From Nitratireductor arenosus (GTDB taxonomy: Bacteria; Pseudomonadota; Alphaproteobacteria; Rhizobiales; Rhizobiaceae), in assembly GCF_009742725.1 (NCBI RefSeq), contig NZ_WPHG01000002.1, forward strand, positions 930,001 through 994,000: a stretch of 64,000 nt of DNA. The letters are read 5' to 3'. The notes under the pieces were generated by a model. That model worked only from the letters and a program-made list of their open reading frames with translations, did not search any database and was not told the origin of the DNA. This document shows, in pieces, positions 1 through 9,894 of this stretch (position 1 is its first letter; each line of letters opens with the position of its first letter). The position numbers and the translations under genes were made by a program.

Positions 1-284
1 CGGCCGGCCGGCTGCGTAAAAAATCCGCGCGCCGCGCCGAAAACATCCGCCACATCCCCGGCGGGGATGCCGTGGTTCACGAGATAGAAGAAGCCGACAT
101 CGTTCAGCGCCTTGCCGATCTCGGCGGCGACGCGTTTCTTGTCGGCGTCCGTGCCGTCCCTGAACCCCTGGAAATCAACCAGCGGCACCTGTGTGAAGGG
201 GATCGACTTGGCAGGCGGCACCGCGCCGGTGGTTACGCCAGCCGGTCCGCTGTCGGAATGGGTGGATGAAATCGTTTCGGTCAT
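1..284 (-). CDS. 2-oxoglutarate/Fe(II)-dependent oxygenase, isopenicillin N synthase family (N-terminal part only)
   Basis: An open frame reads on the minus strand from an ATG at 284 to the left edge without a stop, giving about 94 residues. A strong Shine-Dalgarno sequence (AAGGAGGA) lies seven bases before the ATG. After about 25 low-complexity residues the protein has the hydrophobic IPFTQVPLVDF segment and then GFFYLVNHGIP. That is the signature of the N-terminal domain of the isopenicillin-N-synthase-like non-haem iron oxygenases. The HxD...H iron ligands and the 2-oxoglutarate arginine would lie outside the window, so activity and substrate cannot be judged. It diverges from the operon starting at 716 and may share its control region. 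Confidence 0.8.
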   Translation of the reverse strand, partial: MTETISSTHSDSGPAGVTTGAVPPAKSIPFTQVPLVDFQGFRDGTDADKKRVAAEIGKALNDVGFFYLVNHGIPAGDVADVFGAARGFFTQPAG

Positions 285-415
285 GTCGTGTTCCTCCTTG
301 GGTTCGGAATTTCGGCGGGTTCCGATGCACGTGTCGGCTCGGCCGACATACCGGCGCATCGGCGCGCGCCGTCGGCGACCGCGCCGGGCGCGATCGGGTA
401 TGGACTGGTTATGCG

Positions 416-456
416 ACTATAAAACTAACTTTATAGTTGTATCAGCATACTGTCAA
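416..456 (-). promoter_or_regulatory. Candidate promoter and operator of the divergent oxygenase gene
   Basis: On the minus strand TTGACA (456-451) is followed after 15 bases by TATAAA (435-430), a plausible though short-spaced sigma70 promoter. A perfect dyad, ACTATAAA-N6-TTTATAGT (416-437), overlaps the -10. A second small dyad, GTAT-N4-ATAC (439-450), sits between the two hexamers. The stretch is strikingly AT-rich against its surroundings. The dyads look like repressor or activator half-sites; the regulator is not encoded in the window. Confidence 0.5.
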
Positions 457-715: not shown

Positions 716-2041
716 ATGACAATCGCACCCCCCGCCGTTTCCGCCCGTGGTCGATCGCCAATCTTCGAGCCCAGCCTGCCGGGTTCGAAATCCCTCACCA
801 ATCGGGCGCTGGCGCTGGCGGCGGCGCGCAAAGGCAAGACGCGGGTGGTGGGGGCGCTGCATGCCGATGACACCGTGCGGTTCGCCGACTGCATCAACCG
901 GTTCGGCGGTCTGTCGGTTGCGGCCGACACATGTCGGGCCGCCTTCCATGTGGAGAATTCGTGCCCCGGCGAGCGACCGCTCGCGCCGCATGAGCCGCTC
1001 GATATCGGCGCCGCCGGGACACCGGCCCGCTTCTTGTTGTCGATGGCCGCGGACGCCGAGGGCGAGACGACCATTACCGGAACGAGGCGGCTTTGCGAGC
1101 GGCCGATGGCGAGCGGCATCGAGGCGTTGCGGGCGCTCGGTCGCCCGGTCTTGGAAACCGGCAATCCGGGATGCCTTCCCGTGCGCATCGTCGGCGGCCG
1201 ACCGACCGACACCTATTGGCGGGTCGACGGCTCGGTCTCGTCCCAATTCACCAGCTCCATGCTGCTATCGGCCGCGCGGCAGGATGCCGATCGCGGTCCC
1301 GTTCACGTCGAGGCGACCGGAAATCTGGTCTCGCGTCCCTATGTCGATATGACGGTCCAGACCATGCGCGCGGCCGGCATCGATATCGGTGCGGTCGGGC
1401 CGCAAACCTGGCGTGTGCTTCCCCAACGGCCCGACGTCGCGTCGATCGCGGTGGAACCGGATGCTTCCGCGATGTCCTATTTCCTCGGCGCGGCCGCCAT
1501 TCTCGGTGGCGCGGTCCGGATTTCGGGCGTGGGCAGTTCCTCCGCGCAGGGCGATGTCGGCTTCGTTCATGTGCTGGAAGAAATGGGATGCGCGGTGTCG
1601 GTTACGCCGACCGACATTGAACTGCGCGGGCCCGAAGGCGCCCTGCGCGGCATCGAGGTCGATCTGGAGACCATGCCGGACATGGTTCTCACGCTCGCCG
1701 TCGTGGCCGCGTTCGCGCAAGGCAGGACGAAAATCGTCAACATCGCCAATCTGCGCCTGAAGGAATGCGACAGGCTTCATGCGGCCGCCCAGGAACTTCA
1801 ACGCATCGGCATTCGCGCCCAGGAAGGTCCGGACTGGCTGGAGATCGCGCCGGACGGAACCGGCCCGCGGCCCGCCTCGGTGCACACCTATGACGATCAT
1901 CGCGTCGCCATGGCGTTCTCGCTCGCTGCCTTGACGAACAAGGAGATCACGATCGAGGACCCCGCCTGCGTGGCGAAGTCCTTTCCAGATTACTGGAGCG
2001 AATATGCGCGTCTGGCCGAATCCTATGGTCTCGCCCGTTAG
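716..2041 (+). CDS. EPSP synthase (AroA)-like enolpyruvyl transferase, operon-borne paralogue
   Basis: The 441-residue protein covers the whole EPSP synthase fold. Motifs visible are PGSKSLTNR (Lys25, Arg30), ADDTVRF, GAAGTPARF (residues 98-106), GSVSSQFTSSMLL, EPDASAMSYF, RLKECDR and YDDHRVAM. EPSP synthases move the enolpyruvyl group of phosphoenolpyruvate to shikimate-3-phosphate. Here the LGNAGTAMRP loop is changed (Asn to Ala, Ala-Met to Pro-Ala), which fits a specialised paralogue. The ATG at 716 was chosen because GGTGA precedes it and homology begins there; a frame from 596 adds 40 unrelated residues. It is the first gene of an operon with a methyltransferase, an iPGM-like mutase and an oxyanion importer, so a role outside aromatic amino acid synthesis is inferred. 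It could still be the only AroA of the cell. Confidence 0.85.
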   Translation: MTIAPPAVSARGRSPIFEPSLPGSKSLTNRALALAAARKGKTRVVGALHADDTVRFADCINRFGGLSVAADTCRAAFHVENSCPGERPLAPHEPLDIGAAGTPARFLLSMAADAEGETTITGTRRLCERPMASGIEALRALGRPVLETGNPGCLPVRIVGGRPTDTYWRVDGSVSSQFTSSMLLSAARQDADRGPVHVEATGNLVSRPYVDMTVQTMRAAGIDIGAVGPQTWRVLPQRPDVASIAVEPDASAMSYFLGAAAILGGAVRISGVGSSSAQGDVGFVHVLEEMGCAVSVTPTDIELRGPEGALRGIEVDLETMPDMVLTLAVVAAFAQGRTKIVNIANLRLKECDRLHAAAQELQRIGIRAQEGPDWLEIAPDGTGPRPASVHTYDDHRVAMAFSLAALTNKEITIEDPACVAKSFPDYWSEYARLAESYGLAR

Positions 2042-2071
2042 TTGGCTGGCAGCCGCGCCCGGGAGGAAACG

Positions 2072-2833
2072 ATGCAAACCTCATCCACGCATTACCGTGA
2101 CGAATATGACAAGACGCTGGTGGCGCAATGGGACGAGCTGCTTGGCTGGACGGATCGACGCGCCGCCGAGGGCAGTTTTCTGGCCGACCTGTTGAGCGCG
2201 TGCCAGGTCCGCTCGGTGCTGGACACGGCCACCGGAACCGGTTTTCACGCCGTGCTGTTGTCGCAGGCCGGGTTCGCCGTCACCGCAATCGACGGAGCGG
2301 CGGAGATGGTCGAACGGGCCAGGCGCAACATCGCCACCATGGCCGGCCGGGCCGTGTCCTGCGCGGTCGGCGATTGGCTCGACCACGAAAGCCTGCCGGC
2401 CGGCCCCTTCGACGCGGTCATCTGCATGGGCAACTCGATCGCGCATCTGTTTTCGCGCGCCGATCTTGATCGTGCCCTTTGCAATTTCCGGCGGCTGGTT
2501 CGCGATGGAGGCACACTCGTGCTCGACCATCGCAACTACGACGCCATTCTCGCCGGCCGGATATCGGCGCAGGACCGTACCTATTGCTGTACGGGCCTCA
2601 AGGCTTCGGTCGACCTTGCCGTGGTCGGGCGGGACGTTGTCGACATCACCTACCGGACGGCCGGGCATGCGCCCGCCACCATTCGAACGCACGCATGGAC
2701 AACCAGTGAGGTCGGCAAGGCGATCGGGACCAACGGCTTTGACGCGCACGCGCTCCACGGCCCGCGCGGGGCGGCTTTCGATCCGGACCGGTCCGAATTC
2801 GTCATCCATGTCGCCACGGCTGCGGATCGATGA
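2072..2833 (+). CDS. SAM-dependent N-methyltransferase, glycine/sarcosine methyltransferase-like
   Basis: The 253-residue class I methyltransferase starts at an ATG behind GGGAGGAA. It shows VLDTATGTGFHAV (SAM-binding motif I), AIDGAAEM (motif II acidic residue), ICMGNSIAHL and LVLDHRNYD. The last two are typical of bacterial glycine and sarcosine/dimethylglycine N-methyltransferases, which make glycine betaine. Such enzymes methylate small amino acids, so an amino-acid-like amine is the likely acceptor. The cysteine pattern is not that of the ArsM arsenite methyltransferases. Its stop overlaps the next start by four bases (ATGA), indicating translational coupling to the mutase gene. Family assignment is good; the substrate is unknown. 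Confidence 0.8.
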   Translation: MQTSSTHYRDEYDKTLVAQWDELLGWTDRRAAEGSFLADLLSACQVRSVLDTATGTGFHAVLLSQAGFAVTAIDGAAEMVERARRNIATMAGRAVSCAVGDWLDHESLPAGPFDAVICMGNSIAHLFSRADLDRALCNFRRLVRDGGTLVLDHRNYDAILAGRISAQDRTYCCTGLKASVDLAVVGRDVVDITYRTAGHAPATIRTHAWTTSEVGKAIGTNGFDAHALHGPRGAAFDPDRSEFVIHVATAADR

Positions 2834-4326
2834 CCGGGCGGGCCAAAACCGGACTGATCATCCTTGACGGCGCGGGCCTTGCCGCACCGGCGCGCGGCAA
2901 TGTCGTCGACCGCGCCTGCATGCCGGTGCTGTTCGACCTGTTCGATCGTTACGGCATGGTTCCGCTCAGGGCTTCCGGCGACGCCGTCGGGCTGTTCGAC
3001 GGTCAGGCCGGCAATTCCGAAGTCGGGCATCTCACCCTCGGCATGGGCCGCACTGTGGTCTCCTCGCTCGTCGCCATCGATCGCGCCTACCGGTCGGGCA
3101 CGTGGAAGAAAAGCGCCGTCTGGCAGACCCTGCGCGACGAGACGGCCCAAAATGGCCGGTTCCACATTCTTGGCCTTGTGTCCGACGCCGGCGTGCACGG
3201 CCATTGGCGCACTATCGTCCAGGGCGCGGAACTGGCCGGGCGCAGCGGATTTTCCACCGTGGTCGTGCACCCGGTGCTCGACGGGGTCGATGCGATGCGC
3301 GGCTCGGGGCCCGCTTTGCTTGACACCCTGCGCCAGGCGCTGGCGGCGCGGGTTCCGGCGGCGCGGATCGGGGTCGTGATCGGACGGGCCTGGTTCGCCG
3401 ACCGCACCGGAAACCGCGCCCTGGCGCGCCATCTGGTCGATGCGCTTTTAAGCGCCGACGCGCTGCCGCGCTTCGATCGCCGGCAGCTCGAAGAGTTTTG
3501 CCGGGACAAGAGCGAGCGCGATTTTCCCGCTCACAGGGCCGATGCCGACACCCGGCTGACGCCCGGCGAGGCCGTACTGGTCACCAGCCATCGCGCCGAC
3601 CGCGCCGTGCAGACGGTCGAGGCGCTCGCCGCGCGCTGCCGTCCGGCCACGCTGACCAGCATTTCAGAACAGGTGCCGGCCGCGCGCGTCTTTTTTCCGA
3701 CCCGCAGCCTTTCGGGCGGTCTGGCGCAGGCCCTGCAGGCGCGCGGCATCGCGCTGACGCGGATCGCGGAAAACTGCAAATTTCCGCACGTCACCTATTT
3801 CTTCAACGGGTTCCGGCAATCGCTGGGCGAACGGCAAATATCGATCCCCGACACGCCGGGCGGTCCCGAAACCTGCCCGCGCATGCGGGTGGACGAAACG
3901 GTGGACGCCTGCCGCCGGGTGATGACAAGCAGCCGCGAAACCGGGTTCGTCGTCAATATTCCAAATCTCGACCAGGTCGGACATTCCGGCGATGTGGGCC
4001 TGTGCCGGCTCGCGGCCGAAGCGGTCGACCACGCTCTTTCCCAGATTGTCGCCCAGGCCCGTGAAACCGGCTGGACGCTGGCGGTCACAGCCGATCACGG
4101 CAATGCTGAACGGCTTTTGGACGATCAGGGCCGTGGCTTCGGTTCGCATACCGCCAACCCGGTGCCCTTTACCATCGTTACCGCCGACGGCAGCCGGGCC
4201 GACTGGGCGCTTGGCGACGGCGGCCTCGACAACGTCGCCCCGACAATGGCCGCGCTCTTGGGCGTCGATCCGGCCGGGATCTGCGACGCGCCAGCGCTGA
4301 TTTGCAGACAACGGAGCCTGGCATGA
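2830..4326 (+). CDS. 2,3-bisphosphoglycerate-independent phosphoglycerate mutase-like enzyme (divergent)
   Basis: The 498-residue protein belongs to the alkaline phosphatase superfamily and keeps the iPGM two-metal centre: Asp13 (ILDG), the nucleophile Ser63 in GNSEVGH, His123 in SDAGVHGH, Asp381 and His385 in NLDQVGH, Asp422-His423 in TADHGNAE and His440 in HTANP. The substrate-pocket motifs differ from glycolytic iPGM: RYYAMDRD is replaced by GRAWFADRTGNR, FNFRADRARQ by VTSHRADRAVQ, and the PSPKVATYD lid by DTPGGPETC. Intact chemistry with an altered pocket suggests a mutase acting on a different PEP- or phosphoglycerate-like ester. It is coupled by four-base overlaps to the genes on both sides. 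A glycolytic function is possible but less likely from this context. Confidence 0.8.
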   Translation: MTGRAKTGLIILDGAGLAAPARGNVVDRACMPVLFDLFDRYGMVPLRASGDAVGLFDGQAGNSEVGHLTLGMGRTVVSSLVAIDRAYRSGTWKKSAVWQTLRDETAQNGRFHILGLVSDAGVHGHWRTIVQGAELAGRSGFSTVVVHPVLDGVDAMRGSGPALLDTLRQALAARVPAARIGVVIGRAWFADRTGNRALARHLVDALLSADALPRFDRRQLEEFCRDKSERDFPAHRADADTRLTPGEAVLVTSHRADRAVQTVEALAARCRPATLTSISEQVPAARVFFPTRSLSGGLAQALQARGIALTRIAENCKFPHVTYFFNGFRQSLGERQISIPDTPGGPETCPRMRVDETVDACRRVMTSSRETGFVVNIPNLDQVGHSGDVGLCRLAAEAVDHALSQIVAQARETGWTLAVTADHGNAERLLDDQGRGFGSHTANPVPFTIVTADGSRADWALGDGGLDNVAPTMAALLGVDPAGICDAPALICRQRSLA

Positions 4327-5216
4327 TCGTAACGCTGCGCATCGACCCGGACGAACGTGCCGCCGCCGCGATCGGTCTGCTGGTGCCGGAGCCGCCAAAC
4401 ACCGTTCACCAGACGCTGGTCGGGTTTTGCGCCCCCTGCCCCTTGCCCTACCAGATCGTCCGCGAAAGCCAGAGCAGCCAGCGCGCCTATCTGTTCGAGG
4501 GCGATTTCCGCGCAAACCATGAATTTTCCTTCCATTTCGCCGCCGGGACCGAGGCGGGAAAAACCGACGAATTTGCCGATTTCGACAATGCCTACACCCG
4601 GCTTGTCGGCGATCTGTCCGAATTCCTCGATCTCGATGGGCGGGCCGGCGCGGCGGACGGCGATGAGGAAATCGTCGAGGCGGTCGCGCGCCGGTTCAGC
4701 TATGGCGGGCAAAATCCCGACCTGGCGCGACCGGCGACCTTTTGCGGCATCCGGTCGGGCAACTGCGTCGACATCAACACCGCCTTGCTTGCCTGCCTGC
4801 GGGCGGCCGGGCGCCGGGCGGCCTATTTCGCCGGTTTTTATTTCGGCCAGAACCGCACCGGCTGCCGCGCCGACGGCATGCATTGCTGGATCGCCACCGG
4901 GACGGCGGCGCGCCGCAGCGACTGGGACGTCGCGCATTGCCTGAAAGCGGGGCTGGCGCGGCCGGTGCCCGGTCTGAACCCGTTGGGCGGCGTCAGGGCC
5001 GCGTTCTCGCATGGCCGCGGACTGGTTTTCGAGACCGGAACGGCCCGCCTGCCGGCGATCAGCCATTTCACCCGCCCGCGCTGGCTGCTGCCGGACGGCA
5101 GTCTGCCCGAGGCCATCACCAGCGCGCTGCTGGAGCAGCCCATGCACGCGGGCGCGGATACCGTGCGGTGGAAGCACCATCCGGGTGCGGCGAACCAGGC
5201 AACAAGGAGCGCATGA
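4323..5216 (+). CDS. Transglutaminase-like cysteine protein
   Basis: The 297-residue protein starts at the ATG of an ATGA overlap with the mutase gene. A transglutaminase core is visible: Cys148 in GNCVDINTALLACLRAAG, His187 in GMHCWI and an aspartate at 200 or 202 in SDWDV. That is the order and spacing of a Cys-His-Asp triad. The protein is also rich in cysteine outside the active site, including CAPC near the N terminus. Family members act as peptidases, peptide N-glycanases or amide-forming acyltransferases. In this operon amide formation or hydrolysis of a pathway intermediate is the best guess. No signal peptide is seen, so it is probably cytoplasmic. It does not closely resemble the transglutaminase at 52361. 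Confidence 0.65.
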   Translation: MIVTLRIDPDERAAAAIGLLVPEPPNTVHQTLVGFCAPCPLPYQIVRESQSSQRAYLFEGDFRANHEFSFHFAAGTEAGKTDEFADFDNAYTRLVGDLSEFLDLDGRAGAADGDEEIVEAVARRFSYGGQNPDLARPATFCGIRSGNCVDINTALLACLRAAGRRAAYFAGFYFGQNRTGCRADGMHCWIATGTAARRSDWDVAHCLKAGLARPVPGLNPLGGVRAAFSHGRGLVFETGTARLPAISHFTRPRWLLPDGSLPEAITSALLEQPMHAGADTVRWKHHPGAANQATRSA

Positions 5217-6040
5217 TGCCGGCCAGGACGATCGTGATCGCCATTTTGTCCGCCGCGCTGGCGCTCGCCGGTCAGGCCGTGTCGCATGCGCAGCAGGAGG
5301 TGCGCATCGTCGTCACCGGCTCAAGCACGATCGCGCCGCTGATGATGGACATCGCCCAGCGCTACGAGGCGTCGCATCCGGGCGTGCAGGTCGACGTCCA
5401 GACCGGCGGCTCCTCCAGGGGCCTGTCGGACGTGCGGCGCAAACTCGCCGATATCGGCATGGTCTCGCGGGCGCTCGGCAGGGAGGAAGGCGACGTCGCG
5501 GCGACGCGGATCGCGTGGGACGGCGTGGCGCTGATCGTCCATGCGCAAAATCCGCTCGAGCGCTTGTCCGACGACCAGGTGCGGGCGATCTACACCGGCG
5601 AGGTGACGCGCTGGGAGGCGCTCGGCCCCTGGGACGGGCCGATAACCGTCGTCAGCAAGGCCGAAGGCCGCTCGACGCTGGGAATTTTCGTCCACTATCT
5701 CGGTCTCGATATTCGTGACATCCGCGCCCATACCATTATCGGCGACAACGAGCAGGCGGTGAAGGTCGTGGCCGGCAATCCCCGGGCGGTGGGCTACATC
5801 TCGATCGGCGCGGCCGAATATCACGCAAGCGCCATGACCCCGATACGCGCGATCGCGCTTGGTTCCGTCGCACCAACCTCCGCCAATGTCGCAAACGGGT
5901 CGTACCCGGTCAGACGAGAGCTGAACCTGGTGACGTATCCGGACCCGGCGGCTCCGGTCGAAGAGTTTTTGCGGTTTGCCTCCGGAGAACAGGTGCATGA
6001 CCTCATTTCCGAGCATTATTTCTCGCCGGCGTCGAATTAG
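5216..6040 (+). CDS. PstS-like periplasmic oxyanion-binding protein
   Basis: The 274-residue protein has a signal peptide of about 26 residues ending SHA-Q. The mature chain opens with VVTGSSTIAPLM, followed by VQTGGSSRGL and KAEGRSTLGIF. These are the three anion-binding segments of phosphate-type (PstS) binding proteins. Substrate is inferred as phosphate or an analogue such as arsenate; the sequence alone cannot separate them. The ATG at 5216 sits six bases after AAGGAG; an ATG at 5213 is also possible. The next gene starts inside its end. Confidence 0.8.
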   Translation: MPARTIVIAILSAALALAGQAVSHAQQEVRIVVTGSSTIAPLMMDIAQRYEASHPGVQVDVQTGGSSRGLSDVRRKLADIGMVSRALGREEGDVAATRIAWDGVALIVHAQNPLERLSDDQVRAIYTGEVTRWEALGPWDGPITVVSKAEGRSTLGIFVHYLGLDIRDIRAHTIIGDNEQAVKVVAGNPRAVGYISIGAAEYHASAMTPIRAIALGSVAPTSANVANGSYPVRRELNLVTYPDPAAPVEEFLRFASGEQVHDLISEHYFSPASN

Positions 6041-6908
6041 GTGGCACGGGACCCCGAACGCGCTGAAAGACGCCGTCTTCGTCGTCGTCTTGTGGGCCTC
6101 GGGCGTTCTGGCGATCGGAGCGATGGCCGGCGTTTTGATCGTGCTGGCGATCGGTTCCGCGCCGGCCCTGTCGCAGGCCGGCCTGGCCGCATTCGTCCTG
6201 GGAGCCGATTGGTATCCCACCGCCGGCGAATTCGGGCTGGTGGCGATGGTTGCGGCCACGCTCGCGGTTTCGGCCGGGGCACTGCTGGTCGCCGGGCCGC
6301 TTGGAATTTTGTGCGCGGTCTACATCCGCTACTATGCCGGCGATCTCGCCGGGGCCGCCTTTCGCGTGGTGCTGATGACCCTGGCCGCCATCCCCTCGGT
6401 CGTCTACGGCCTGTGGGGCATGACGGTGCTGGTGCCGCACATTGCCGCGTGGCAGCCGCCGGGCACGTCGCTTCTGGCCGGCGTCGTCGTCCTGTCGATC
6501 ATGGTGCTTCCGACCGTGGCCGTGCTGGCCGAGGCGGGCCTGCGCCAATTGCCGTCGTCGCTCTATCTCGGCAGCCTGGCGCTCGGATGCGCACGCCACG
6601 CCGCGATCAAGCGCATCGTTCTGCCGTCCGCGAAAGGGCCGGTCGCAGCCGCCTGCATGCTCGGGCTGGCCCGGGCGCTTGGCGAAACGATGGCCGTGCT
6701 GATGGTGGTCGGAAACGCCGTCGCCATGCCCGACAGCCCGTTTGCGTCCGTGCGCACGCTGCCGGCCAACATCGCGCTCGAGATGGCCTACGCGATCGAT
6801 GTGCACCGGTCGGCCCTGTTCGTTTCGGGCCTGGTGCTGATGGCCATGGTCGGCCTGCTGCTTGCGATGCGCTGGTATTGGGGCGGGCCCGATGACCCGC
6901 AATTTTAG
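5997..6908 (+). CDS. PstC-like ABC transporter permease
   Basis: The protein is about 303 residues with six predicted membrane segments. The EAA loop region is visible as LYLGSLALGC...IKRIVLPSAKGPVAAACMLGLARALGETMAVLMVVGN, matching PstC permeases. It forms the membrane channel with the PstA-like protein for the substrate delivered by the PstS-like protein. The chosen start (ATG 5997) lies 44 bases inside the binding-protein gene and follows a GGAG; an earlier ATG at 5976 is weaker. The N terminus is arginine-rich. In the operon it overlaps both neighbours. Confidence 0.85.
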   Translation: MTSFPSIISRRRRIRWHGTPNALKDAVFVVVLWASGVLAIGAMAGVLIVLAIGSAPALSQAGLAAFVLGADWYPTAGEFGLVAMVAATLAVSAGALLVAGPLGILCAVYIRYYAGDLAGAAFRVVLMTLAAIPSVVYGLWGMTVLVPHIAAWQPPGTSLLAGVVVLSIMVLPTVAVLAEAGLRQLPSSLYLGSLALGCARHAAIKRIVLPSAKGPVAAACMLGLARALGETMAVLMVVGNAVAMPDSPFASVRTLPANIALEMAYAIDVHRSALFVSGLVLMAMVGLLLAMRWYWGGPDDPQF

Positions 6909-7725
6909 ACCTTTCGCCAACGATTTCCTGGTACGGGCCGCGGTAGCGGCGGTGGTGCTCGTCCTGGCCGCCATCGTGCTGCATGTCGTCACGCGCGGCG
7001 CCGCGCTGGTGACGTGGGAATTCCTCACCACCGCGCCACGGTCGGCCGGGCGCGCCGGAGGCATCGCGCCGGTGCTTGTCTCGACCGTGGCGGTAACGGC
7101 GGTGGCGCTGGCGGCGGCATTGCCGCTGGCGGTCGGAGCCGCCGTGTTCCTGGTCGAGGCGGTGCGCCCGGAGGCGACGGCTGCGCGCCTGACCAGGGGC
7201 TGTCTGAGTGTGCTCGCCGCGGTTCCCTCGATCGTGTTCGGCCTGGCCGGCAATATGATTTTTTGCGACTGGCTCGGTTTTGGCTTCTCCATCCTTGCCG
7301 GCGGACTGACCCTGGCCCTGATGATCCTGCCGATTGCGGCCTGTGTGGCGGAAACCACCTTGCGCATGCATGGCGAAGACCGCAGGGCGGGTTACGCGCT
7401 CGGCCTGCCGCAGCGGCGGATTGTCTGGTCGATCATGCTGCCGGCGGCGGCGCCGGGCATTTTCGCCGGGCTGGGGCTCGGCTTCGGACGCGCGGTCGCC
7501 GAAAGCGCCGCTCTGATCTTCACCAGCGGCTACGTGGTGAGGATGCCGGATTCGGTGTTTGATTCCGGGCGGACCCTGGCGGTCCACATCCTGGATTTGG
7601 CGATGAACGTTCCGGGCGGGGACGGCAACGCATTTGCCACCGCCACCGTGCTTTTGGCGTCGGTGGCGGCGGTGGTTGCGCTGTTTACGGCATTGGACGG
7701 CAAGCGAGGCAGGGATTTCATATGA
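6892..7725 (+). CDS. PstA-like ABC transporter permease
   Basis: The 277-residue membrane protein partners the PstC-like permease. The PstA-type core is seen as VPSIVFGLAGN, then ALGLPQRRIVWSIMLPAAAPGIFAGLGLGFGRAVAESAALIFTSG, containing the cytoplasmic EAA-type coupling helix that docks on the ATPase. The ATG at 6892 overlaps the upstream gene by 17 bases. The last bases overlap the ATPase start (ATATGA). Overlaps throughout suggest strict co-expression of importer and biosynthetic genes. Confidence 0.85.
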   Translation: MTRNFRPFANDFLVRAAVAAVVLVLAAIVLHVVTRGAALVTWEFLTTAPRSAGRAGGIAPVLVSTVAVTAVALAAALPLAVGAAVFLVEAVRPEATAARLTRGCLSVLAAVPSIVFGLAGNMIFCDWLGFGFSILAGGLTLALMILPIAACVAETTLRMHGEDRRAGYALGLPQRRIVWSIMLPAAAPGIFAGLGLGFGRAVAESAALIFTSGYVVRMPDSVFDSGRTLAVHILDLAMNVPGGDGNAFATATVLLASVAAVVALFTALDGKRGRDFI

Positions 7726-8543
7726 ATATTCAAACCACCGGCGCCGCGAAAGCCGTTCCGCCACCGGGGCGCGGCGAGGAAGGCCGGATCCGGGTCGAAA
7801 ACGTCAACGTCGCCTATGGCGCCATCAAAGCCTTGTCGGACGTGACCTTGTCGATCCCGCCGCGGCGCATCACCGCGCTGATCGGACCGTCGGGCTGCGG
7901 CAAGACGAGCCTGCTGACCTGCGTCAACCGGCTGATCGACCTGATCCCGGGCGCGAACGCGACAGGTCGCATCTTTTTGCGTAAAACGGATGTGCTGGCG
8001 CGGGACGCCGACCTGTTGCGGTTGCGCAAACGGGTCGGGATGGTTTTTCAGAAGCCGAACCCGTTCCCGTTCTCGATTCGCCGGAACTTCGATATCGTGC
8101 TGACCGAGTTCGGCGTGCGCCGGCGGGACGACCGGGAAAAGCGGATCGACGAATGTCTGCGCGCCGTCGGCCTGCACACGGAAATCGGTCACCGGCTCGA
8201 CATGTCCGCCTGCGCGCTTTCCGGCGGCCAGCAGCAGCGCCTGTGCATCGCCAGGGCGCTTGCAACGCGTCCCGAAATTCTGCTCCTCGACGAACCGTGC
8301 AGCGCGCTCGATCCGATGTCGACGATGACGATCGAACGATTGCTGCTCGACCTCAAGGACAGCGTCACACTGGTGATCGTCACCCACAATCTTTCGCAGG
8401 CAAGACGGATCGCCGACGAATGCGCGCTGTTTTGGACGGAGTGCGGAACCGGTTATCTGCTCGAACACGGGACGATGGCCGATTTGACGGACCGGCCCAA
8501 GAACCAGGTCACGGCCGACTACCTCCACGGACGAGTGGCCTAG
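7722..8543 (+). CDS. PstB-like ABC transporter ATPase
   Basis: The 273-residue ATPase has Walker A GPSGCGKTS, a Q-loop in GMVFQKPNPFPFSI, signature LSGGQQQRLCIARALA, Walker B ILLLDEPCSALDP and switch His in VIVTHNL. The Q-loop wording is characteristic of PstB phosphate importers. It energises uptake through the two permeases. No phoU, phoB or phoR follows, unlike normal pst operons, so this is unlikely to be the housekeeping phosphate system under PhoU signalling. It is the last gene before the dispersed repeat. Confidence 0.9.
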   Translation: MNIQTTGAAKAVPPPGRGEEGRIRVENVNVAYGAIKALSDVTLSIPPRRITALIGPSGCGKTSLLTCVNRLIDLIPGANATGRIFLRKTDVLARDADLLRLRKRVGMVFQKPNPFPFSIRRNFDIVLTEFGVRRRDDREKRIDECLRAVGLHTEIGHRLDMSACALSGGQQQRLCIARALATRPEILLLDEPCSALDPMSTMTIERLLLDLKDSVTLVIVTHNLSQARRIADECALFWTECGTGYLLEHGTMADLTDRPKNQVTADYLHGRVA

Positions 8544-9775: not shown

Positions 9776-9894
9776 ACGCTCCCAGGGGCGTTATGCTTTT
9801 CGCGGAATCGCAGACCGGCTCTAACTTATTGTTTTAACGTGCTTGTGAACGGCGACCCGGCTTCCACTTCGCCTGGAAACGCTCCTAGGGGCGT
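9776..9894. repeat. Duplicated 16-base near-palindrome between lexA and comEC
   Basis: ACGCTCCCAGGGGCGT (9776-9791) and ACGCTCCTAGGGGCGT (9879-9894) differ by one base and are 103 bases apart. Each can form a six-base RNA stem with a G-U pair. The second lies just beyond the comEC stop. They sit between convergent genes and may help end transcription, though no strong T-run follows. The rest of the 310-base gap 9588-9897 holds no supported gene. Confidence 0.45.

Follow-up and report, generated by a model that had tools for sequence, protein, structure and literature searches.

A stretch of 64,000 nucleotides from Nitratireductor arenosus (contig NZ_WPHG01000002.1, positions 930,001 to 994,000; hereafter the window) carries, at 716–8543, an operon that probably (at about 0.8) encodes a proteobacterial form of the Streptomyces bsnMN pathway, in which arsenate would be converted to an organoarsenical by way of a core route from arsenate to arsonopyruvate. 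The operon joins a paralogue of AroA, the 5-enolpyruvylshikimate 3-phosphate (EPSP) synthase, to an enzyme of the cofactor-independent phosphoglycerate mutase (iPGM) family. In Streptomyces, bisenarsan requires bsnM (EPSP synthase) and bsnN (phosphoglycerate mutase), since knock-outs abolish it and 2-hydroxyethylarsonate restores it (PMC12159101). The bsn cluster is that of S. lividans 1326 and S. coelicolor A3(2) (SCO6812-SCO6837, with bsnM being SCO6819; PMC12159101, PMC8062868), and bsnMN have been described as widespread in actinobacteria (PMC12159101). The first-pass annotation, which was made from the sequence of the window, had pointed to a Streptomyces precedent of an AroA paralogue with a mutase, and this is right in substance. 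The core route from arsenate to arsonopyruvate is well supported by kinship and gene context and has a genetic precedent in Streptomyces. The operon would carry the same arsenic-carbon (As-C) chemistry into a further phylum, where the tailoring genes differ.

The eight genes that had been proposed at 716–8543 are all present on the plus strand. A 30-base gap at the first joint is followed by overlaps of 4, 4, 4, 44, 17 and 4 bases, in agreement with the short overlaps described earlier. The order of the genes, with the kind of evidence for each, is as follows.

716..2041, plus strand: BsnM-like EPSP synthase (AroA paralogue, "AroA-like"), proposed arsenate enolpyruvyl transferase (profile, genome search, tree, residues)
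2072..2833, plus strand: S-adenosylmethionine (SAM) methyltransferase of the glycine/sarcosine N-methyltransferase (GNMT) type, with motifs GNSxxHL and DHRNYD (profile, motifs, PDB match)
2830..4326, plus strand: BsnN-like iPGM-family enzyme ("iPGM-like"), proposed arsenoenolpyruvate mutase forming the As-C bond (profile, tree, residues)
4323..5216, plus strand: transglutaminase-like protein with invariant C148, H187 and D202 (Transglut_core, alignment, model)
5213..6040, plus strand: PstS-type phosphate/arsenate binding protein (family match)
5997..6908, plus strand: PstC permease (family match)
6892..7725, plus strand: PstA permease (family match)
7722..8543, plus strand: PstB ATPase (family match)

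The family matches of the operon proteins are to EPSP_synthase/aroA, Metalloenzyme and iPGM_N, Transglut_core, and PstSCAB.

Distinction from the housekeeping enzymes

The genome contains three genes of the EPSP synthase family, namely a canonical aroA (436 bits), murA and the operon copy. The AroA-like protein shares 29% identity with the canonical AroA of the same genome, 50% with a protein from a Rhodospirillales metagenome-assembled genome (MAG) and 45% with a Streptomyces plasmid protein. It passes the TIGR01356 aroA model (378 bits, cut-off 287), so the profile alone cannot separate BsnM-like proteins from AroA. The iPGM-like gene is the sole iPGM_N gene of the genome and falls below the cut-off of the glycolytic iPGM model TIGR01307 (272 bits vs 331), the glycolytic mutase of this genome being of the GpmA type, which depends on 2,3-bisphosphoglycerate (342.7 bits, cut-off 316). 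A second, canonical pst set is also present, with its pstC on another contig.

When plasmids were searched with the mutase, most of the matches were glycolytic iPGM at 28–34% identity. Identity alone fails to separate BsnN-like proteins from glycolytic iPGM, and only trees and gene context were therefore used. The linear plasmid of Streptomyces sp. NBC_01708 (NZ_CP109189.1; locus L016) bears an aroA-gpmI pair, annotated as shikimate and glycolysis genes, along with three ArsR genes, a permease, Pst genes and trxAB.

In the maximum-likelihood tree of the mutases, a branch with support 99/98 separates the window protein and 41 iPGMs of the clusters from a set of 40 others (Alphaproteobacteria, E. 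coli, Priestia, Bacteroides and Acetoanaerobium), and in that of the transferases the AroA-like proteins are set apart from 39 other AroA with support 100/99. Both trees display two inner branches, one actinobacterial (in the mutase tree together with one Chloroflexota MAG) and the other made up of Alpha-, Beta- and Gammaproteobacteria and Planctomycetota. Neither protein groups with glycolytic iPGM or ordinary AroA, and second copies (the separate aroA, the GpmA-type mutase and the second pst set) do exist elsewhere in the genome; these were two of the points at which the first-pass annotation had expected its proposal to break down if it were wrong.

The residues of the two enzymes point in the same direction. 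The mutase had been described as having intact two-metal and serine residues and altered substrate motifs, and so it proves: no cluster member has lost a metal ligand or the nucleophilic serine, and the pocket is changed at several positions (in the numbering of the B. stearothermophilus iPGM). Position R153 is Arg in 40/40 of the other iPGMs and in all actinobacterial members, V, T or I in 11 of the 12 other relatives, and V in the window. E335 is C in the window protein, and M404 is Q, as against V in the actinobacterial members. Two residues around 196–198 that are invariant or nearly so in glycolytic iPGM are lost. In the 44 AroA-like relatives, the residues of EPSP synthase that bind shikimate 3-phosphate (S3P) and phosphoenolpyruvate (PEP), placed by E. 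coli AroA numbering, are retained almost throughout, and the window protein keeps them. All 45 AroA-like proteins, against 0/39 other AroA, have a Pro in the GxAGTP loop. The complete S3P site fits EPSP as the donor, as proposed in PMC12159101.

These data also bear on the idea that the pair are housekeeping back-ups, that is, an additional EPSP synthase, possibly tolerant of glyphosate, and an additional glycolytic mutase within a phosphate-uptake operon. The AroA-like protein does pass the aroA equivalog cut-off and keeps all its catalytic residues. However, the genome already encodes a canonical AroA and a mutase of the GpmA type, the iPGM-like protein scores below the glycolytic cut-off and lacks pocket residues that are invariant in the 40 housekeeping iPGMs, and AroA and iPGM remain paired across phyla. 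Such back-ups are very improbable, and a housekeeping origin of the two genes was rejected on the genome search, the trees and the residues.

Arsenic genes at the operon and at related loci

Genome contigs were scanned with four BsnM-like AroA proteins, giving 80 loci; with L016, L053 and the window locus added, 45 loci have an AroA of at least 44% identity and 38 fall below this value and were taken as controls. Related loci among the 45 are not independent, so the Fisher values are too small, and the controls are somewhat shorter (16 vs 20 kb). An iPGM gene is found at 44 of the 45 AroA-like loci (the lone exception is a 3.9-kb contig), ArsR at 34, Pst at 31, a decarboxylase at 21, an ArsO-like flavoprotein at 13, an ArsP_1 permease at 12, and arsenite oxidase AioA with AioB at five, all proteobacterial; each of these is found at 0/38 controls. 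In a Kiloniellaceae locus (L056), the AroA, methyltransferase, iPGM, transglutaminase-like, ArsR, AioB and AioA genes stand in a row, the first four ordered as in the window; the AioA of this locus reaches 1195 bits with the arsenite oxidase model (cut-off 359). The loci of Azospirillum soli (L060) and Ramlibacter (L067) combine aioBA with ArsR, Pst, AroA, iPGM and transglutaminase-like genes. In the AroA and iPGM clades, twelve loci of the Streptomyces type include genes for polyketide synthase, KAS III and phosphonopyruvate decarboxylase, a content that matches the published bsn genes (PMC12159101).

In N. arenosus itself, an ArsR gene and an ArsP_1 permease gene lie 1.8–3.3 kb left of the window. 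The earlier statement that the window holds no PEP mutase, ArsR or polyketide or non-ribosomal peptide synthase gene is, as to ArsR, true inside the window and false just beyond it.

Contig 926740-927069: ArsR regulator, 2.9–3.3 kb left of the first base of the window
Contig 927207-928226: ArsP_1 permease, left of the window
Contig 928299-929183: LysR regulator, left of the window
Window 1..359, contig 929244-930359, minus strand: divergent 2-oxoglutarate-Fe(II) oxygenase (DIOX_N and 2OG-FeII_Oxy, 371 amino acids), with its start in the window and the rest beyond the left edge

The ArsR proteins of the source genome, L053, L056, L060, L061 and L067 all have a C-terminal Cys-Cys pair, reminiscent of the arsenite site in some ArsR proteins. 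Arsenic over phosphorus is favoured by the ArsR, ArsP_1 and arsenite oxidase genes around the related loci, and this context, together with kinship and residues, supports the As-C biosynthesis that the first-pass annotation had suggested.

A phosphonate product would require that the importer bring in phosphate, that the AroA-like enzyme make PEP from EPSP, and that the iPGM-like enzyme act as a PEP mutase of a novel kind. The Pst family is associated with phosphate, and some relatives have phosphonopyruvate decarboxylase and 2-aminoethylphosphonate transaminase with no ArsR detected. On the other hand, PEP is already at hand in cells, so that an enolpyruvyl transferase would be needed for arsenate and idle for phosphate; genes for ArsR, ArsP_1 and arsenite oxidase are found repeatedly at the related loci and at none of the 38 controls; and the characterised members form an As-C bond (PMC12159101). 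Near the operon no PEP mutase of the isocitrate lyase superfamily was seen (no genome-wide search was made). On balance, a phosphonate product is unlikely.

Several points weigh against the arsenic pathway. Its chemistry in the source organism and in all proteobacterial relatives is predicted from gene content, kinship and context, and the identification with BsnM and BsnN of S. lividans and S. coelicolor is drawn from the gene content of related loci. No arsenite oxidase was found near the operon or elsewhere in the source genome. LysR and oxygenase genes stand between the ArsR/ArsP pair and the operon. No ArsR was found with the queries used at L057, L058, L059 and L066, which have decarboxylase and PhnW genes, and the arsenic role is less sure for these loci on that account. 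Finally, a BsnJ-type phosphonopyruvate decarboxylase was not found in the source genome over the model cut-off, so that arsonopyruvate must have another fate than the published one.

Proposed pathway and tailoring genes

In the proposed organoarsenical pathway, PstSCAB would import arsenate and possibly phosphate too. The AroA-like enzyme would transfer the enolpyruvyl group of EPSP to arsenate, in the reverse of the EPSP synthase reaction with arsenate replacing phosphate, to yield arsenoenolpyruvate and shikimate 3-phosphate. Next, by means of its serine and two metals, the iPGM-like enzyme would shift the arsono group from O to C, giving arsonopyruvate with its As-C bond. The GNMT-type methyltransferase and the transglutaminase-fold enzyme may modify a derivative, perhaps an N-methylated arsonoalanine arising via a general aminotransferase, and the upstream ArsR would sense arsenite while the ArsP-type permease would export the product or arsenite. 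Every reaction in the source organism is inferred, and the methyltransferase and transglutaminase steps are guesses.

The same chemistry could serve to detoxify arsenate and not to make an antibiotic or signal. The genes for ArsR, the ArsP-type permease and arsenite oxidase count as resistance genes, and bisenarsan is far less toxic than arsenate (PMC12159101). In contrast, a dedicated high-affinity importer beside the enzymes suggests active acquisition of the oxyanion, and ArsC/Acr3 would be a cheaper defence. Detoxification is thus a sizeable possibility, somewhat short of even odds.

The methyltransferase scores 164 bits against the glycine/sarcosine N-methyltransferase model NF051855, below the cut-off of 350, and its nearest structure is the glycine/sarcosine N-methyltransferase 5gwx (E 6e-37). 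It keeps DHRNYD and also GNSxxHL, the latter in the same-genus genome G002 too. In GNMT these motifs hold the substrate carboxylate, and an amino-acid-like substrate is therefore likely. By its sequence, the enzyme works on the GNMT principle but differs from that enzyme. It is present in the window, G002 and L056. The transglutaminase-like protein is present at six proteobacterial loci, with the Cys, His and Asp residues listed above invariant in the alignment. Its model has a modest pLDDT of 73 and resembles the transglutaminase-like cysteine peptidase 3isr. The PDB sequences contain no match to it and the fold search returned only remote transglutaminase-like cysteine peptidases, so its substrate is not readable from the fold.

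Tailoring in the Streptomyces relatives would involve a decarboxylase and a polyketide synthase, neither of which was found, by eye and by profile, within about 14 kb to the right and 25 kb to the left of the operon. We tentatively propose a second, non-actinobacterial organoarsenical branch, in which arsonopyruvate would undergo neither decarboxylation nor linkage to a polyketide; instead, the GNMT-type methyltransferase and the transglutaminase-fold enzyme would make from it a new arsenical resembling an amino acid (e.g. N-methylated arsonoalanine).

Other relatives display other neighbours of the AroA/iPGM pair. At L057, L058, L059, L061 and L066 the pair stands beside phosphonopyruvate decarboxylase and PhnW (2-aminoethylphosphonate transaminase), a gene set that suggests a version leading to 2-aminoethylarsonate (or the phosphonate); a 600-amino-acid protein with no Pfam match is encoded at four of these loci too. 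The iPGM-like gene of L061 (= L054, a Rhodospirillales MAG), at 6955-8402, is split over two frames, by either a real frameshift or an assembly error. The core genes are followed by an Ldh_2 dehydrogenase at L067 and by an aminotransferase and an L-amino-acid ligase at L070. ATP-grasp L-amino-acid-ligase-like genes near the pair occur at L070, L068, L072, L073, L075-L077, L095 and L103, hinting at arseno-peptides.

Upstream region and candidate operator

The divergent oxygenase is a possible member of the operon system. The Kiloniellaceae locus L056 has a copy with 69% identity close to the same operon, and in a search at E ≤ 1e-60 the oxygenase was absent from the same-genus genome G001 and only 40% identical in G003. 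Its promoter-like site, at 456-428 on the minus strand, overlaps the following element.

416..437, no strand: perfect dyad with 8-bp arms, ACTATAAA-N6-TTTATAGT, candidate operator

The dyad has a single match in the window, 0.01 being expected, and no second copy within 16 kb upstream. It is fully conserved in G002, while the stretch around it is less conserved.

Conservation within the genus and the order

Another species of the genus (G002) retains the block from ArsR to lexA, with protein identities of 80–94%, and the gene order of the operon is on this account not due to chance. The mutase is absent from two of the three other species of the genus, and at E ≤ 1e-90 the AroA-like gene is found in one of 398 sampled genomes of the order, the source genome only. 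In G001, moeA-moaC-trpC-trpD stands beside lexA at the place of the operon. The difference is not a clean insertion at an empty site, since about 28 kb around the operon (contig about 910.8-938.8 kb) lacks an equivalent next to lexA in G001, and this indicates a rearranged or lineage-specific segment.

On the 3' side, the operon is followed by lexA, comEC and gltX-like housekeeping genes. Between lexA and comEC, at about 9789-9884, there is an interspersed repeat of about 95 bases, of which G002 has more than 35 copies and G003 several, while none is reported for G001. Base composition (67.0% GC in the operon vs 64.9% in the window) is uninformative as to horizontal transfer.

Comparison with known systems

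Genetic proof of As-C bond formation without SAM chemistry has so far come only from Streptomyces, and the open literature searched, which excludes Cruz-Morales 2016 and Hoshino 2023, holds no account outside actinomycetes. If the present reading of the operon is true, this chemistry reaches Alpha-, Beta- and Gammaproteobacteria, Planctomycetota and Chloroflexota, linked in some of them to arsenite oxidation, and would be a source for complex environmental organoarsenicals. On the more tentative reading of a second, non-actinobacterial branch, arsonopyruvate would be a general hub, as phosphonopyruvate is for phosphonates, with decarboxylase/PhnW, lactate-dehydrogenase-like and amino-acid-ligase versions elsewhere. 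The compact gene set, its presence or absence at the genus level and the several tailoring modules make the fate of arsonopyruvate directly testable.

The operon shares with bsn the EPSP synthase paralogue, the iPGM-family enzyme and ArsR regulation, and the related Streptomyces loci mostly have Pst-type transporters too. It differs in having no polyketide synthase, KAS III or phosphonopyruvate decarboxylase, in the addition of the GNMT-type methyltransferase and the transglutaminase-like protein, in the placing of the importer and these two genes in one operon with the core pair, and in mutase positions R153, E335 and M404. Compared with the route of PEP mutase, phosphonopyruvate decarboxylase and PhnW, the logic is alike, in that an enolpyruvyl-oxyanion would become an oxyanion-pyruvate before tailoring, and some relatives share the decarboxylase and PhnW; the operon mutase, however, belongs to the alkaline phosphatase/iPGM superfamily and not to the isocitrate lyase superfamily, and an enolpyruvyl transferase is needed. 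The arsQML genes for arsinothricin in Burkholderia gladioli (PMC8552651) are likewise a case of bacterial organoarsenical biosynthesis in an arsenic operon, but make the As-C bond from arsenite by radical SAM/ArsM chemistry, with neither EPSP synthase nor iPGM (PMC8552651). With glycolytic iPGM (GpmI; 2ify, 1ejj) and shikimate AroA, the two core proteins share the fold, the metals, the serine nucleophile and the S3P/PEP residues, and are set apart from them by their separate clades, the altered mutase pocket and the Pro in the GxAGTP loop of AroA.

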